From positions 1-28,114 of IMG/VR virus record IMGVR_UViG_3300034071_000726: DNA of 28,114 nucleotides. One strand, written 5' to 3'. Positions 1,952 through 26,558 of this stretch are shown in pieces. Origin of the DNA: a virus. A program made the translations under genes and the position numbers. Under the pieces are notes generated by a model. The model was not told the origin of the DNA and searched no databases. It saw only the letters and a list, made by a program, of their open reading frames with translations. How positions within the stretch are numbered: position 1 is the first letter of the stretch; each line of letters begins with the position of its first letter.

Positions 1952-2107
1952 ATGAATAAGTACTTAATAAAGCTAGTAATTGCAGCAGAAGTAGAAGCTT
2001 TTGATGAAAATGATGCAAGAGATTACATATCGGATATATTTGGTATAGACGATGAAGTAAGAAAAGTTAATATAGAAAGCGTTAAACTAATCAAGGAGAA
2101 AAAATGA
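1952..2107 (+). CDS. small protein of unknown function (51 aa)
   Basis: Begins right after the endolysin stop and ends in an ATGA overlap with the peroxidase-like gene, so it sits inside the same transcript. The sequence MNKYLIKLVIAAEVEAFDENDARDY... looks like a small alpha/beta fold with an acidic middle. No family recognised. Confidence 0.7.
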   Translation: MNKYLIKLVIAAEVEAFDENDARDYISDIFGIDDEVRKVNIESVKLIKEKK

Positions 2108-3021
2108 GCGTAATTGTTGAAGAAAAAGAAGTAACTCTAACTGCAGAACAGGTATTGGAAGAACTTAGAGCAAAAGCAGAAAGACGTGCTATGACTTGGC
2201 CAATTTGGGAAACAGGACTAGAATCAGCAGAAGGAGAAAAGGACTTTCTTAAGAAGTATGAGGGCAAGGTCTTGTTTTTTACTAATACAACAATTGGCTG
2301 TGGAAATGCAAACCAGCTAGAGGTTTTGCAATGGCTACAAGATGAATTTCAGGATCAAGGGTTTTCTGTAATTGGAGTGCCAACAAATGATTACTGTGGA
2401 GCTGGAATTACAAAATCAAATCACAAGCCAGAAAGATTTGCTAAGGGAATTACATGCGGATTAGACTCAAAGGAGTATAGCCAAGAAATTTATGGTACTA
2501 CATTTGAGTACTCAGAAATGACACATTCTAACCCAAACGATTTAGTTTCTGGAACTGTAGGCTCAGCTCCAGGACACAATGGAGTCGGCGAGCCTTATGG
2601 CGAGCCTCATATTTTTTGGAAAACAATTGCTGGAAGTTCTGAGCGCCTTACAGATTATGACAGATCAAATGGGGTCTCACAGTTTTTAGACGATTACTAC
2701 TCATGGTGGCTAAATCTTGGATTTCATGGAGGACTTAAAATGTCAGGTAATTACGAAAAGTATTTATTTGATAGAGACGGATATTTTTTAAAGAATTTCA
2801 ACTGCCAAGTTCTTACGTATGACCATGAAAAAATGGTTAAGGATCAAGCGGCATCAGTTGGAGCTCCTTTGTCAATGGCTCATGGCCGATCTACTAAGAT
2901 ATTCCAGGAAGAATATGAAGTCGTTAAGGCTGCAATTCAATCTGCTTTAGACGGAGAGCTTTCTTTGCTAAATCCAAAGCACCCGAACTGCATAGTATCT
3001 CCACAATATCAAAAAAAATAA
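2104..3021 (+). CDS. glutathione-peroxidase-like thiol peroxidase with large insert
   Basis: 305 residues, about twice the usual length of the family. The core after residue 54 follows the glutathione-peroxidase pattern: VLFFTNTTIGCGNANQ with Cys66 where the peroxidatic Cys/Sec sits, FSVIGVPTNDY (89-97) like the family's GFPCNQF motif, and NYEKYLFDRDGYFLKNF (216-232) like the late strand carrying WNF.KFLIDRDG. The classical Trp of the tetrad is not present there (Gly-Asn-Tyr), so activity may be altered. A helical N-terminus of about 50 residues and a long loop region (about 135-210) are extra. The start overlaps the previous gene (ATGA) with AAGGAG before it. It might protect the infected cell from oxidants. 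Confidence 0.65.
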   Translation: MSVIVEEKEVTLTAEQVLEELRAKAERRAMTWPIWETGLESAEGEKDFLKKYEGKVLFFTNTTIGCGNANQLEVLQWLQDEFQDQGFSVIGVPTNDYCGAGITKSNHKPERFAKGITCGLDSKEYSQEIYGTTFEYSEMTHSNPNDLVSGTVGSAPGHNGVGEPYGEPHIFWKTIAGSSERLTDYDRSNGVSQFLDDYYSWWLNLGFHGGLKMSGNYEKYLFDRDGYFLKNFNCQVLTYDHEKMVKDQAASVGAPLSMAHGRSTKIFQEEYEVVKAAIQSALDGELSLLNPKHPNCIVSPQYQKK

Positions 3022-3648: not shown

Positions 3649-3946
3649 TGTTTACGATAATCATCACTTTAAACACGGAATGAATCAGTGGACTGGTGAA
3701 CCCAATAAGCCAGTTTTTTATAATGAGGAAATGAAAAAAAAGCTAAGAGAGCTAAATAAACCAATGTTTCTTTTAATGGATGTTGTAAAGTATCCAGAGT
3801 TTTTAGCGCTTAGATTGTATGAAGATAATTTTATTCAGTTTGATGGTATAGAAAAAGAAAAAGTAATAGACTATGTTTCAAAAGCAAAAAAACTTCTCGA
3901 ATCTTACGGTGTTCGAGTAGAACTAGAAGGAAGACCTATAGCATGA
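3641..3946 (+). CDS. protein of unknown function (101 aa)
   Basis: Starts 8 nt inside whiB and ends in an ATGA overlap with the next gene. The protein is soluble with mixed charge; the C-terminal part (DGIEKEKVIDYVSKAKKLLESYGVRVELEGRPIA) looks like a helix plus strand. I do not recognise it. Confidence 0.7.
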   Translation: MSNVYDNHHFKHGMNQWTGEPNKPVFYNEEMKKKLRELNKPMFLLMDVVKYPEFLALRLYEDNFIQFDGIEKEKVIDYVSKAKKLLESYGVRVELEGRPIA

Positions 3947-4425
3947 GTGAATTAGAAGCAGAAGCATTAAGACCAGAGCATTTCTCTATTGTTGACAGCT
4001 TTTTAAAAGAAAATGAAAACTTAAGAGAGGTTCATTATATGTTAACTATTGCAAGAGATGGAGAGAGTCCAGAAAGATCAATTTATCATTATAGTAGTCC
4101 GCTAGATGTGGCTGAAGCCTATAGCAGATATACTGATTGGGGATTTGCAAAGGAATACCTAACAGTTACGATATACGGCCCAGGGGGAAAGCTGGCGCAA
4201 AAAGTTCTTCGTAGACCATCTGGAGGCACACAAGGCGACTGCACTTTTGTAAGAGAAGATTACGTAAGAGCAGAAAAAATAATATTAAAGTATAAAAAAG
4301 ACATGCCAGAAGATAGATACACTGCTTTAGTAAAAGATTTTGCTAAACTTTTTTCAAGAGACAACGTTAGATTTAACGTAAGTCGTTTTTTTAAAGAAAC
4401 TGAATGTGAAGAGGTTTTTGAATGA
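3943..4425 (+). CDS. two-domain phage protein, fused form of two minus-strand genes in this window
   Basis: 160 residues in two parts. Residues about 30-90 contain YTDWGFAKEYLTVTIYGPGG, matching FTDWGFANEYSTVNLYTPSG of the minus-strand gene at 24522-24728. Residues about 103-152 (FVREDYVRAEKIILKYK...FAKLFSRDNVRFNVSRF) match the minus-strand gene at 24334-24525 (TRKDYVATAEILKYA...FAEMFAKDNERFDVTRF). The order is the same, so one locus has them fused and the other split. The second domain resembles a small protein common in actinophages. Function unknown; it is translationally coupled on both sides. Confidence 0.8.
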   Translation: MSELEAEALRPEHFSIVDSFLKENENLREVHYMLTIARDGESPERSIYHYSSPLDVAEAYSRYTDWGFAKEYLTVTIYGPGGKLAQKVLRRPSGGTQGDCTFVREDYVRAEKIILKYKKDMPEDRYTALVKDFAKLFSRDNVRFNVSRFFKETECEEVFE

Positions 4426-5025: not shown

Positions 5026-5583
5026 ATGACTTGTATTGTTGCAATTGCCCAAGGTGGTGTCGTCTATATGGCATCAGATCATGCTGCCTCTGATGATAAA
5101 ACTGGATGGATCCTTTCAAGAAAAGAACCAAAGTGTTTCAAGGTTGGCCAATATGGAATTGCATTCACAGATTCCTTTCGTATGGGGCAAATCCTTCAAT
5201 ACATGTGGACCCCACCAAAGTATACTCCAACAAAAACCAATTCTGGTTTAGATAAGTTTATGAGAACAAAGTTTGTTGATTCAGTTAAGGCTGCATTTAA
5301 AGAGCATGGATACGGAAGCATTGGATCCTCTTCAGAAGAGGATACGGGTGGAATTTTTATAGTTGGCCTTGAAGGTAGAATCTTTACTATAGATGAAGAC
5401 TTCCATGTTGGCGAAAATGTTGTAAACTATATGGCAGAAGGTAGCGGTGGAATGATTGCGCTAGGTGCACTTCATGCCACAAAGAATCAAAAAAACCCTA
5501 GGCTAAGACTTAAAGCAGCACTAGAAGCAGCAACAGAGTTTAATATGAGCGTAGCTGCCCCCTATACATACATTCAAGTTTAG
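5026..5583 (+). CDS. proteasome-beta/HslV-like Ntn-hydrolase
   Basis: 185 residues. After loss of Met1 the N-terminal residue is Thr2 (MTCIVAIAQGGVVYMASDHAA), as in proteasome beta subunits and HslV, where this Thr is the nucleophile. Asp18 fits the conserved Asp, a Lys at 33 or 36 fits the catalytic Lys, and GSGGMIALGAL resembles the family's GSGG.YA.GA motif. There is no propeptide. No ATPase partner (HslU- or ARC-like) is encoded in the window, so it may act alone, join host parts, or serve in head maturation; these are inferences. It has its own leaderless promoter. Confidence 0.8.
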   Translation: MTCIVAIAQGGVVYMASDHAASDDKTGWILSRKEPKCFKVGQYGIAFTDSFRMGQILQYMWTPPKYTPTKTNSGLDKFMRTKFVDSVKAAFKEHGYGSIGSSSEEDTGGIFIVGLEGRIFTIDEDFHVGENVVNYMAEGSGGMIALGALHATKNQKNPRLRLKAALEAATEFNMSVAAPYTYIQV

Positions 5584-9022: not shown

Positions 9023-9175
9023 ATGGAATGGGATCACTTTCACACAATTCAAAAAAAAGTTTTAAATGAATTAATTAAAGAAATGGAAGATTTAGAAATT
9101 CCACCAGACTGGAGACCACGAGAGGTCTTAAGGTTAGTAATTAGAAAATTAAAAGAAAAAGAGGAATCATGTTAA
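9023..9175 (+). CDS. small charged protein (50 aa)
   Basis: Likely leaderless: TAAAAT (9010-9015) ends seven bases before the ATG. The product ([20 protein letters not shown]...) is helical and highly charged with an [13 protein letters not shown] segment. It overlaps the KAPAK-repeat gene by 7 nt. Family unknown. Confidence 0.6.
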
Positions 9176-9468
9176 CTAGATTAAAGATTTGGCTAGGAAT
9201 CACACCAAAAGAAGTTATGTTTGAAAAGGTTATTACGGATGCGCTTCTAGCATCAATTAAGGCACCAGCCAAGAAGGCACCAGCCAAGAAGGCACCAGCT
9301 AAGAAGGCACCAGCCAAGAAGGCACCAGCTAAGAAGGCACCAGCCAAGAAGGCACCAGCTAAGAAGGCACCAGCCAAGAAGGCACCAGCTAAGAAGGCAC
9401 CAGCCAAGAAGGCACCAGCTAAGAAGGCACCAGCTAAGAAGGCACCAGCTAAGAAGGCAGTCAAGTAA
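9169..9468 (+). CDS. protein with 13 KAPAK repeats, histone-H1-like tail
   Basis: 99 residues. The first 30 ([20 protein letters not shown]...) form a short helical head; the other 69 are thirteen exact KAPAK units followed by KAVK. Such Lys/Ala/Pro tails occur in H1-like bacterial proteins and in tails of actinobacterial HU and bind DNA or RNA without a fixed fold. A nucleic-acid-condensing or polyanion-binding role, for example in the wall, is inferred. The start overlaps the gene before it, and the stop overlaps the next (TAATG). Confidence 0.85.
9259..9453 (+). repeat. 15-bp tandem repeat array (13 units) with 30-bp superperiod
   Basis: Thirteen copies of AAGGCACCAGCYAAG, 195 bp, in frame. 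Units differ only at one silent position (Y): C C T C T C T C T C T T T. The alternation in the middle shows that expansion happened in 30-bp pairs. The array is coding, not CRISPR: there are no spacers. Confidence 0.97.
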
Positions 9469-12368: not shown

Positions 12369-12530
12369 ATGACAACTTTTATTATTATTTTCATTCTATC
12401 TTTATCCGTATGTGGATATTTTGGGTATAGACTTTACCAAGAAATCTCAACTATAATGGAAGCAAAAAGAATACACGATAAAATGGTTCAGGATCATTTT
12501 TGGGCAACTCAACAGTCGTTTGAAGAATAG
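12369..12530 (+). CDS. single-span membrane protein (53 aa)
   Basis: The first 20 residues form one membrane span (MTTFIIIFILSLSVCGYFGY), followed by a charged helix (YQEISTIMEAKRIHDKMVQD). Start set by the leaderless promoter. It precedes the GroES gene by 10 nt. Family unknown. Confidence 0.6.
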   Translation: MTTFIIIFILSLSVCGYFGYRLYQEISTIMEAKRIHDKMVQDHFWATQQSFEE

Positions 12531-12540
12531 GCTTACCTTT

Positions 12541-12837
12541 GTGATTAAACCATTTGGCAACTTATTATTAGTTAAAGAAAACAAAGTAGAAGATAGGACC
12601 ACCTCTTCTGGTATAGTTCTTATGGCCTCGCTTAGTGATTCTCCTCTAAGGGTTGGAAAGATAGTCGATCTTGGAAACGGTGAGCACAATTATAAAGGTG
12701 AGCTGATACCAATTAATGGATTAGATATTGGTGATAGTGTCTATTACAATCAAAACAGCGGAACTGATATTGAAGACGAAGACGGCGAAAAATATCTGCT
12801 TTTAAATACAAAAAGCGTACTAGCAATTAAGGGATAA
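12541..12837 (+). CDS. groES-like: GroES-like co-chaperonin
   Basis: 98 residues from a GTG start, close to the usual 95-100 of GroES. IKPFGNLLLVKENKVEDRTT opens the fold, SSGIVLM is the mobile-loop motif that contacts GroEL, and the rest (VGKIVDLGNG, IGDSVYYNQNSGTDI, KYLLLNTKSVLAIKG) follows the family. An upstream in-frame TTG at 12520 would add seven residues not seen in GroES. No GroEL is present in the window, so it probably works with host GroEL, as T4 gp31 does for capsid folding. Confidence 0.88.
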   Translation: MIKPFGNLLLVKENKVEDRTTSSGIVLMASLSDSPLRVGKIVDLGNGEHNYKGELIPINGLDIGDSVYYNQNSGTDIEDEDGEKYLLLNTKSVLAIKG

Positions 12838-22236: not shown

Positions 22237-22274
22237 CCAGGGATATCCACAGGCAGTCGTAACCCTGTGGATAA
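22237..22274. repeat. intergenic element copy 6 with DnaA boxes
   Basis: CCAGG-N16-CGTAA (22237-22262), with ATATCCACA (22243-22251) and a consensus DnaA box TGTGGATAA (22266-22274). These are inverted: TATCCACAGG/CCTGTGGATA is a perfect 10-bp inverted repeat. Confidence 0.7.
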
Positions 22275-22321
22275 CCCCTCAGATTTGCGGGCCAGCTGCA
22301 TATGCAACTGGTGTTAGATCT

Positions 22322-23438: not shown

Positions 23439-23574
23439 AGTATTCGGTTAGATCGCCATCCATGATCTCATTTAGCTCTAAGCCTTCTGAGTCTGCGATT
23501 GCTTCCCATAGATCCATTTCATTAAAGTCTCCATCAGGATGTCGCTCTGATAAGATAGAATAAAGATTATTCAT
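23434..23574 (-). CDS. small acidic protein (46 aa)
   Basis: MNNLYSILSERHPDGDFNEM, DLWEAIADSEGLELNEIMDG. Starts in a TAATG overlap with the gene before it. Its stop lies inside CRP-type site B. Helical and acidic; no family recognised. Confidence 0.6.
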   Translation of the reverse strand: MNNLYSILSERHPDGDFNEMDLWEAIADSEGLELNEIMDGDLTEYL

Positions 23575-23843
23575 TAGTAATCCTCCTCTGGTAGCCAAGC
23601 GTGTAAGTGGTGTTGCTCTATGATTGCGCTAGCGGGTGCATGGTTGCTTCCACGATAAGATACGCCTTCTGGCATTTCGATTAGTCTATTGTAATCTTCT
23701 TCGTAGTAGGCATCAATAGCCTCGATGCAAGGTTGCACCATAGAAAGTGGAACGGGTGGGTAATGATTACCTTGTAAGTGATAGCCTAGTGCTACTTCTA
23801 AATCTAATTCGTTAGATAAATCTAATGCTGTATTGTATCCCAT
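23574..23843 (-). CDS. conserved phage protein (89 aa)
   Basis: LGYHLQGNHYPPVPLSMVQP, then EAIDAYYEEDYNRLIEMPEG and NHAPASAIIEQHHLHAWL. I recall this PPVP...ASAI.E.HHL.AW pattern from many actinophages; the several His suggest metal binding but no function is known. It begins directly after the previous stop. Confidence 0.72.
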   Translation of the reverse strand: MGYNTALDLSNELDLEVALGYHLQGNHYPPVPLSMVQPCIEAIDAYYEEDYNRLIEMPEGVSYRGSNHAPASAIIEQHHLHAWLPEEDY

Positions 23844-24050
23844 TTATTCTGCCACCTTTAGAATAGCCCATGAGCCACCCTTGTTAATTTCATCTAGTGC
23901 AGGCTTAAGTGTTGGTGCAATAAGTGTTTTTAGCATTCCTTCTAGCATAAGTATTTGGTCTGACTTATCAAGTGCAAGTAGCATAGCACCTGTTGGATTA
24001 GTTTCATCAACTTCAGTTACGAAGCGGAGAGAGTGTTCGATAGTTATCAT
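23844..24050 (-). CDS. small helical protein (68 aa)
   Basis: First gene after promoter P7 with an AACGAAAGG leader. MITIEHSLRFVTEVDETNPT, then a Leu-rich helix (DKSDQILMLEGMLKTLIAPT). No family recognised. Confidence 0.65.
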   Translation of the reverse strand: MITIEHSLRFVTEVDETNPTGAMLLALDKSDQILMLEGMLKTLIAPTLKPALDEINKGGSWAILKVAE

Positions 24051-24158: not shown

Positions 24159-24214
24159 CCAGGGGGTTGTGGATAACGCCCGTAAGCCTGTGGATAACCC
24201 CGCAGTATTGCGGG
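24159..24214. repeat. intergenic element copy 7 with two DnaA boxes and hairpin
   Basis: CCAGG-N17-CGTAA (24159-24185); DnaA boxes TGTGGATAA at 24168-24176 and 24189-24197, same direction, 21 bp apart; then hairpin CCCGCA-GTAT-TGCGGG (24199-24214), probably a terminator for the upstream minus-strand unit. Confidence 0.72.
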
Positions 24215-24333: not shown

Positions 24334-24525
24334 TTATCTCGAAGTGAATTTTGGAACATTGTATCCACTCGCTTCGTGAAATCGTGTTACATCAAATCGC
24401 TCATTATCTTTAGCAAACATTTCAGCGAAATCATTTACCATTTTAGAAAAAACAGCGGGGTGAGTTTTATCGCTAGCATACTTTAGAATTTCTGCGGTTG
24501 CGACATAATCTTTGCGTGTCATCAT
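24334..24525 (-). CDS. small phage protein matching the second domain of the 3943 gene
   Basis: 63 residues: MTRKDYVATAEILKYASDKT, then DFAEMFAKDNERFDVTRFHE. Aligns with the C-terminal domain of the plus-strand protein at 3943-4425. The DFA..FA.DN.RFD..RF pattern recurs in actinophages. ATGA overlap with the partner gene. Function unknown. Confidence 0.75.
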   Translation of the reverse strand: MMTRKDYVATAEILKYASDKTHPAVFSKMVNDFAEMFAKDNERFDVTRFHEASGYNVPKFTSR

Positions 24526-24728
24526 TTTGTTACGACCTTTCGACCTTCACGATAGAAAATTTTTGTGTAGCATTTGCCTGATGGCGTATAAAGATTTACA
24601 GTTGAGTATTCGTTAGCAAATCCCCAATCGGTGAAAGAGAAAAAATCTTTCCATGCTTCGAATTCATCATTGAACGGCTTACTCCAATGAGGAGCATTTT
24701 CATCATAGGCAATAGTTATTTTATACAT
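24522..24728 (-). CDS. small phage protein matching the first domain of the 3943 gene
   Basis: 68 residues from the ATG at 24728 (TAATG overlap), not from an earlier ATG inside the gene before it. MYKITIAYDENAPHW...FTDWGFANEYSTVNLYTPSG aligns with the N-terminal domain of the protein at 3943-4425. Together with the next gene it equals that fused protein. Confidence 0.75.
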   Translation of the reverse strand: MYKITIAYDENAPHWSKPFNDEFEAWKDFFSFTDWGFANEYSTVNLYTPSGKCYTKIFYREGRKVVTK

Positions 24729-24853
24729 TAGTTGTTCTCCAATTCTTTTACACAATCGCATTGTTCGCAATCGTAGTCGTTATCATTACCAAAAAAGATT
24801 ACTCCGTATCCGTGGCAATCTATACAATCTATTCTTATTAGTGAGTTTATCAT
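24728..24853 (-). CDS. small Cys-rich zinc-ribbon-like protein (41 aa)
   Basis: RIDCIDCHGYGVIFF then DYDCEQCDC: two CXXC knuckles, the first with CxxCxGxG as in DnaJ-type zinc modules. First gene after promoter P8, with a GAAAGG leader. Function unknown. Confidence 0.62.
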   Translation of the reverse strand: MINSLIRIDCIDCHGYGVIFFGNDNDYDCEQCDCVKELENN

Positions 24854-25267: not shown

Positions 25268-25480
25268 TTAGTCAGACACCTTGACGGCTAAATAGCGGTA
25301 TGTATCTTTTAGATTTAGCGGGGCTGAATAATGAGGTCGAACCTGAACCTTGTATGTATCACAATTCGCATACCATACATCATCATTTTTTTCCGCTGAG
25401 ATAATTTCACCCTTTAGAGTTTTTGAGTGATAAGTTTTTCCTACAAGTAGGCTTTCGATAGAATAGACATTTGCTGACAT
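25268..25480 (-). CDS. small beta-rich protein (70 aa)
   Basis: I start at 25480, behind GAAAGGCGG; the longer frame would include the promoter leader. MSANVYSIESLLVGKTYHSK, EIISAEKNDDVWYANCDTYK: a probable small beta barrel. Own unit from promoter P10. Unknown family. Confidence 0.68.
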   Translation of the reverse strand: MSANVYSIESLLVGKTYHSKTLKGEIISAEKNDDVWYANCDTYKVQVRPHYSAPLNLKDTYRYLAVKVSD

Positions 25481-25606: not shown

Positions 25607-25705
25607 GGCGTGTCGCAAATTCCAGGGGTTGTGGATAACTCCCGTAACCCTGTGGATAACCCCGCTCTTTTGCGGGCGCATCAACTTTTGTCAAGTCGAC
25701 ACGCC
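25607..25705. repeat. element copy 8 with two DnaA boxes, flanked by CGACACGCC inverted repeats
   Basis: GGCGTGTCG (25607-25615) and CGACACGCC (25697-25705) flank CCAGG-N16-CGTAA (25622-25647), DnaA boxes at 25630-25638 and 25651-25659 (21 bp apart) and hairpin CCCGC-TCTTTT-GCGGG (25661-25676). Confidence 0.7.
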
Positions 25706-26428: not shown

Positions 26429-26558
26429 GGCGTGTCGCAAAACTATTTTTGTGATAAAAATCACATAAATCCTGGGGTTTTCCACAGATGCCCGTAAGCC
26501 TGTGGATAACTCCCGCAAGTACTTGCGGGCCAGCTTGACAATGTCAAGCCGACACGCC
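26429..26558. repeat. element copy 9 complex, flanked by CGACACGCC inverted repeats
   Basis: GGCGTGTCG (26429-26437) and CGACACGCC (26550-26558) enclose CRP-type site E, CCTGG-N17-CGTAA (26471-26497), DnaA-like TTTTCCACA (26478-26486), DnaA box TGTGGATAA (26501-26509), a perfect 18-bp palindrome CCCGCAAGTACTTGCGGG (26512-26529) and GCTTGACA-A-TGTCAAGC (26533-26549). Confidence 0.7.
26450..26465. promoter_or_regulatory. CRP/FNR-type palindrome (site E)
   Basis: TGTGATAAAAATCACA, identical to sites B and D, five bases from element copy 9. Confidence 0.75.

Follow-up and report, generated by a model that had tools for sequence, protein, structure and literature searches.

Fused and separate genes in the window

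The stretch of viral DNA analysed here (an IMG/VR virus record of 28,114 bases, hereafter the window) encodes on its plus strand a 160-aa protein composed of two domains, A and B, which are also encoded by two small genes on its minus strand. The latter belong to a cassette of mini-genes, D-E-A-B-C-F. The features are listed below, with the evidence for each in brackets.

3943-4425, plus strand: fused A-B protein, 160 aa (ORF call, BLASTP, recurrence, dN/dS 0.04-0.2)
3943-4035, plus strand: predicted helical N-terminal extension, residues 1-31, missing in the split form (alignment, model)
4036-4215, plus strand: domain A of the fused protein, residues 32-91, predicted beta-beta-alpha-beta-beta (BLASTP, alignment, model)
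4216-4248, plus strand: predicted linker, residues 92-102, with pLDDT <50 at 94-98 (model)
4249-4392, plus strand: domain B of the fused protein, residues 103-150, three predicted helices (BLASTP, alignment, model)
25268-25480, minus strand: cassette gene D, with a probable ATG start at 25480, the choice of start being inferred (HMM)
24728-24853, minus strand: cassette gene E, a 41-aa, four-cysteine, zinc-ribbon-like mini-protein directly upstream of A, with a 1-bp overlap (TAATG) (sequence, HMM)
24522-24728, minus strand: split domain A gene, 68 aa (BLASTP, homologue search, model)
24334-24525, minus strand: split domain B gene, 63 aa, sharing its first 4 bp with the end of A (BLASTP, homologue search)
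23844-24050, minus strand: cassette gene C, 68 aa (HMM)
23574-23843, minus strand: cassette gene F, 89 aa, with an NHYPPVP motif (HMM)

Over 64 columns, residues 32-91 of the fused protein are 44% identical to the 68-aa protein (BLASTP E 3e-14), and residues 103-149 aligned with the 63-aa protein at 46% identity (E 2e-10). When the fused protein was searched against the entire record, three places were retrieved, namely the fused gene, split A and split B, and no others. The domain-by-domain match to two overlapping minus-strand genes described in the initial annotation was thus confirmed, with exact coordinates and the order kept. The separate A and B proteins are homologous, in the same order, to non-overlapping parts of the fused chain, which is the Rosetta-stone criterion. 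Like other such pairs, A and B occur as separate proteins in some genomes and as one chain in others. Unlike Rosetta-stone pairs in general, the two forms coexist here within a single genome, the separate genes being part of a larger, reshuffling cassette. The N-terminal extension (31 residues), the linker (11 residues) and the C-terminal tails of the fused protein have no counterpart in the split form.

The split genes overlap through the sequence ATGA (24522-24525). The fused gene is located in the arm oriented opposite to them, on the lysin side, between genes encoding proteins of 101 and 79 aa, and overlaps each neighbour by 4 bp (3943-3946 and 4422-4425).

The window has a GC content of 38% and contains a WhiB gene (Pfam E 1.4e-11). 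WhiB serves as an actinophage marker (PMC6802176, PMC10202952), and its presence points to an actinobacterial host; the virus probably infects freshwater actinobacteria. Other plus-strand genes encode a GroES-like Cpn10 protein (12520-12837; Pfam E 3.4e-16) and a low-complexity, lysine-rich protein with an (APAKK)n repeat (9169-9468).

Distribution in other viruses and the mini-gene cassette

The fused protein retrieved 44 IMG/VR loci: 42 with a genuine fusion and two with the split form. With split A as the query, 148 IMG/VR stretches were found (80 retrieved), and with split B, 589. The gene order around the fused gene is kept in most of the 42 loci: lysin, g1952, glutathione-peroxidase-like (GSHPx-like), g3123, WhiB, g3641 and the fused gene, followed on its 3' side by g4422, g4690, HslV-like, g5595, subtilase, g6979 and thioredoxin. 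The glutathione-peroxidase-like gene (2104-3021, plus strand; Pfam E 1.3e-9) is present in some fused loci and absent in others. The HslV-family peptidase-like protein (5026-5583, plus strand; PHROG 1040, E 1.4e-20), encoded in one run with the subtilase and the thioredoxin, is 78-97% identical among the fused loci compared. In more distant phages, the fused gene adjoins genes that, from a reading of their sequences, putatively encode a 2-oxoglutarate oxygenase and methyltransferase-like and tail-fibre-like proteins.

A survey of 35 records (all possibly incomplete) showed the fused form in 19 and split forms alone in the remaining 16. The fused gene, split A and split B were found together in 10 of the 35, all of them large contigs, in agreement with the proposal that each arm keeps its own version of the protein. 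As a rule, the proposal does not hold: a 107-kb record has the fused form and a lone B, a 125-kb record has the fused form alone, and so do seven further records of 18-92 kb. Searches of host genomes gave a single match, a split-A homologue on a 3.8-kb contig of a Methylophilaceae MAG, which is probably a stray, mis-binned viral contig.

Profiles for C, D, E, F and G were constructed from small genes recurring near distant A/B loci. The cassette is kept over more than 100 loci, most commonly in the order of the window (D, E, A, B, C, F) or as a subset of it, and other phages reshuffle it (e.g. C B D E A F G or D C B A F G). Since the cassette comprises at least six mini-genes, and C, D, E and F are close too, the closeness of A and B is one case of a general cassette closeness. 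The two genes are co-oriented in all 267 scored cases. Where A precedes B, their spacing is -4 in 133 out of 164 cases; with B before A, about 0.25-3 kb separates them. Many related phages have the two genes apart, B lying first, 0.3-3 kb upstream of A. Some loci contain extra B copies. Moreover, Mycobacterium phage Konstantine, Pelagibacter phage HTVC033P and Rhizobium phage RHph_X3_9 encode B-type small proteins and differ from the window in having no detectable A homologue nearby. B can therefore work without A. Among the 21 possible pairs of the seven cassette domains, A and B are the only pair found fused.

Two near-identical promoter-like stretches, GTCAGTGGCYTAxGCTATAATA, which contain TATAAT, lie on the minus strand about 45 bases before E and C (at ~24898 and ~24095), and a consensus scan revealed no excess of promoter-like sites upstream of these two genes. 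An element resembling GGGTTATCCACAGGSTTACGGGxGTTATCCACAACCCCTGGAATTT is present in four copies between minus-strand genes (22266-22275, 24168-24198, 25630-25660 and 26501-26510). It includes the perfect DnaA-box-like sequence TTATCCACA, observed six times against 0.3 expected. Across A/B loci, the DnaA-box-like site is biased toward the strand of A (657 vs 224). The element could be an operator or a promoter-associated site.

The A and B families occur in hundreds of virus contigs, yet Pfam and NCBIfam lack them and PHROGs barely include them. The D-E-A-B-C-F cassette, likewise absent from the libraries searched, is a recognisable module for grouping such phages.

Descent, selection and predicted folds

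In both the A and the B tree, the fused proteins form one clade of single origin, with an SH-aLRT of 100 in each and FastTree supports of 1.0 (A) and 0.80 (B). This makes the fused form an old paralogue. In the window, the fused copy groups apart from the split copies, which rules out a recent duplication followed by fusion within this virus. Phylogenies of both domains had been proposed as a way of telling whether fusion or fission came first. Each tree gave one fused clade, and the order of events fits either way: with the B proteins of cultured phages as the outgroup, an AU test did not reject a grouping of all split B proteins against the fused form plus outgroup (p-AU 0.475, 58-68 columns).

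The fused gene, split A and split B are all under purifying selection, with dN/dS of about 0.04-0.2 in almost all comparisons; one near-identical pair (dS 0.005) is uninformative for this ratio. Relatives of the fused protein are 40-80% identical to the window's copy, with constraint along the whole chain. The 42 fused loci, together with these dN/dS values, rule out a frameshift or an assembly artefact; along with the recurrence of split A and split B, they also show that the resemblance did not arise by chance. In the split A set, D9, D34, G36, A38, N45 and T55 are conserved, as are I13, N41, F44 and F49 in B. As far as can be seen from the sequences, these residues are unlike any known catalytic set.

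The fused protein was modelled with a mean pLDDT of 84.7 and a pTM of 0.54. After the helical extension, the model places strands at 32-38 and 46-50, a helix at 53-62 and strands at 72-79 and 82-90 in the A part; a linker with pLDDT <50 precedes the B part, which has helices at 104-116, 123-140 and 146-152. Split A, modelled separately, is predicted to have strands at 2-8 and 13-19, a helix at 22-31 and strands at 42-47 and 53-58, plus one at 64-67. The aligned parts of A thus appear to share the order of strands and helix rather than to adopt unrelated folds. This comparison of fused and split forms covers A, the structure of B being that modelled within the fused protein. Given the low-confidence linker and the pTM, the modelled packing of the two domains against each other carries no confidence.

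No match above the cut-off was found for the fused protein, split A or split B among the models of known families, including those of defence, toxins and antitoxins, in Pfam, NCBIfam and PADLOC. A family missing from such collections is not thereby excluded, and a so far undescribed system would escape them. In PHROGs, which have no curated cut-off, PHROG 19432 (unknown function) weakly matched split B (hmmscan E 3.9e-5); eight of 61 members matched at 0.001, and the fused protein did not match. The B HMM gave matches of 5.5e-11 to 6.9e-14 in three cultured phages, and Konstantine gp49 and HTVC033P gp07 share the B pattern TRKDY...A.IL...F...DN..F...RF. The nearest BFVD entries are uncharacterised proteins of uncultured Caudovirales, one of which, of 60 aa, shows 36% identity over 53 columns.

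A fold search of the PDB (Foldseek, E<=0.001) gave no match for the fused protein or A, and a PDB sequence search gave nothing significant for the fused protein, A or B. The A profile matched residues 22-79 of an uncharacterised protein (PDB 2mct) with a non-significant E of 0.019. Literature searches on 2mct and on split or fused phage mini-genes returned nothing useful. For A alone, VIA-align ranked the anti-CRISPR AcrIF9 first (Z 5.0, 58 aligned, 3.5 A); the fused model retrieved AcrIF9 together with the T4 antitoxin Dmd (VIA Z 4.2). Each of these two proteins is similar in size to A. These modelled resemblances, at 10-18% identity and with no Foldseek match, are a lead only: unrelated rows, including SpyCatcher and FN3 domains, reach similar Z scores.

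Possible meaning of the fusion

A and B are uncharacterised phage domains, and their fused/split pattern is real and common to many related viruses, which hints at cooperation between them. Our preferred reading, to which we assign a probability of roughly 45%, is that they are small, undescribed, probably non-enzymatic phage accessory modules acting in the same process, and that the fused protein is a diverged paralogue of the pair. Speaking for it are the homology, the recurrence of both forms, the common orientation and frequent overlap of A and B, the cassette, the single fused clade with its conserved gene neighbourhood, purifying selection and the restriction of fusion to A and B. Speaking against it are the separation of the two genes in many phages, the extra copies of B and its occurrence without A, the lack of specific co-divergence in the adjacent group and the lack of any family, structure or function match that would indicate a role. 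A and B would commonly be made as separate proteins from the minus-strand cassette, and their translation may often be coupled through the ATGA overlap. On a single occasion, in an ancestor of this group of viruses, a diverged A-B pair would have become one chain, gaining an N-terminal helix and a flexible linker. On this reading, the event would be fusion rather than fission. The resulting gene would then have been retained, still functional, as a paralogue of the split pair in the oppositely oriented, lysin-side arm, and the two arms may differ in being expressed early or late. Judging by the size of the proteins and their cassette context, their role would most likely be host take-over or counter-defence.

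A narrower version of cooperation is that the split proteins bind each other directly as a heterodimer, of which the fused protein would be the covalently tethered version. The initial annotation held that a fused and a split form in one genome strongly imply such binding. The co-occurrence of the two forms does speak for it, together with the ATGA overlap on the same strand and the restriction of fusion, within the cassette, to A and B. These observations carry less weight than was claimed, since adjacency is a property of the cassette in general and many phages have lost it, B occurs without A, the fusion arose only once, and the model of the fused protein has a pTM of 0.54, with low confidence in the linker. 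Distance correlations point the same way: in the adjacent group, the A-B value (r 0.18) shows no excess over the remaining cassette pairs (0.06-0.24). The non-adjacent group gives a moderate A-B value of 0.28, where only B-F is higher (0.34). A higher value over all loci (r 0.48), considered as a sign of co-divergence, was dropped, as it fell within the adjacent group and thus largely reflects group structure. We regard direct binding as rather doubtful.

Adjacent overlapping genes fuse easily, and the fusion could have been incidental, two overlapping mini-genes becoming one frame that was then carried along while A and B did independent jobs, sharing only a cassette and its timing. The free reshuffling of cassette mini-genes, the single fusion event, the flexible linker and the lack of specific A-B co-divergence all accord with this explanation. 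However, the fused protein is widely kept and constrained throughout, and no other neighbouring pair in the cassette is fused. We consider an incidental origin unlikely.

It is improbable that A and B each supply half of an effector for host takeover or anti-defence, with the separable pair and its diverged, tethered version giving each phage two target-specific editions of one two-part inhibitor. The fused form provides a single construct with which to find a partner or target of the mini-gene cassette.
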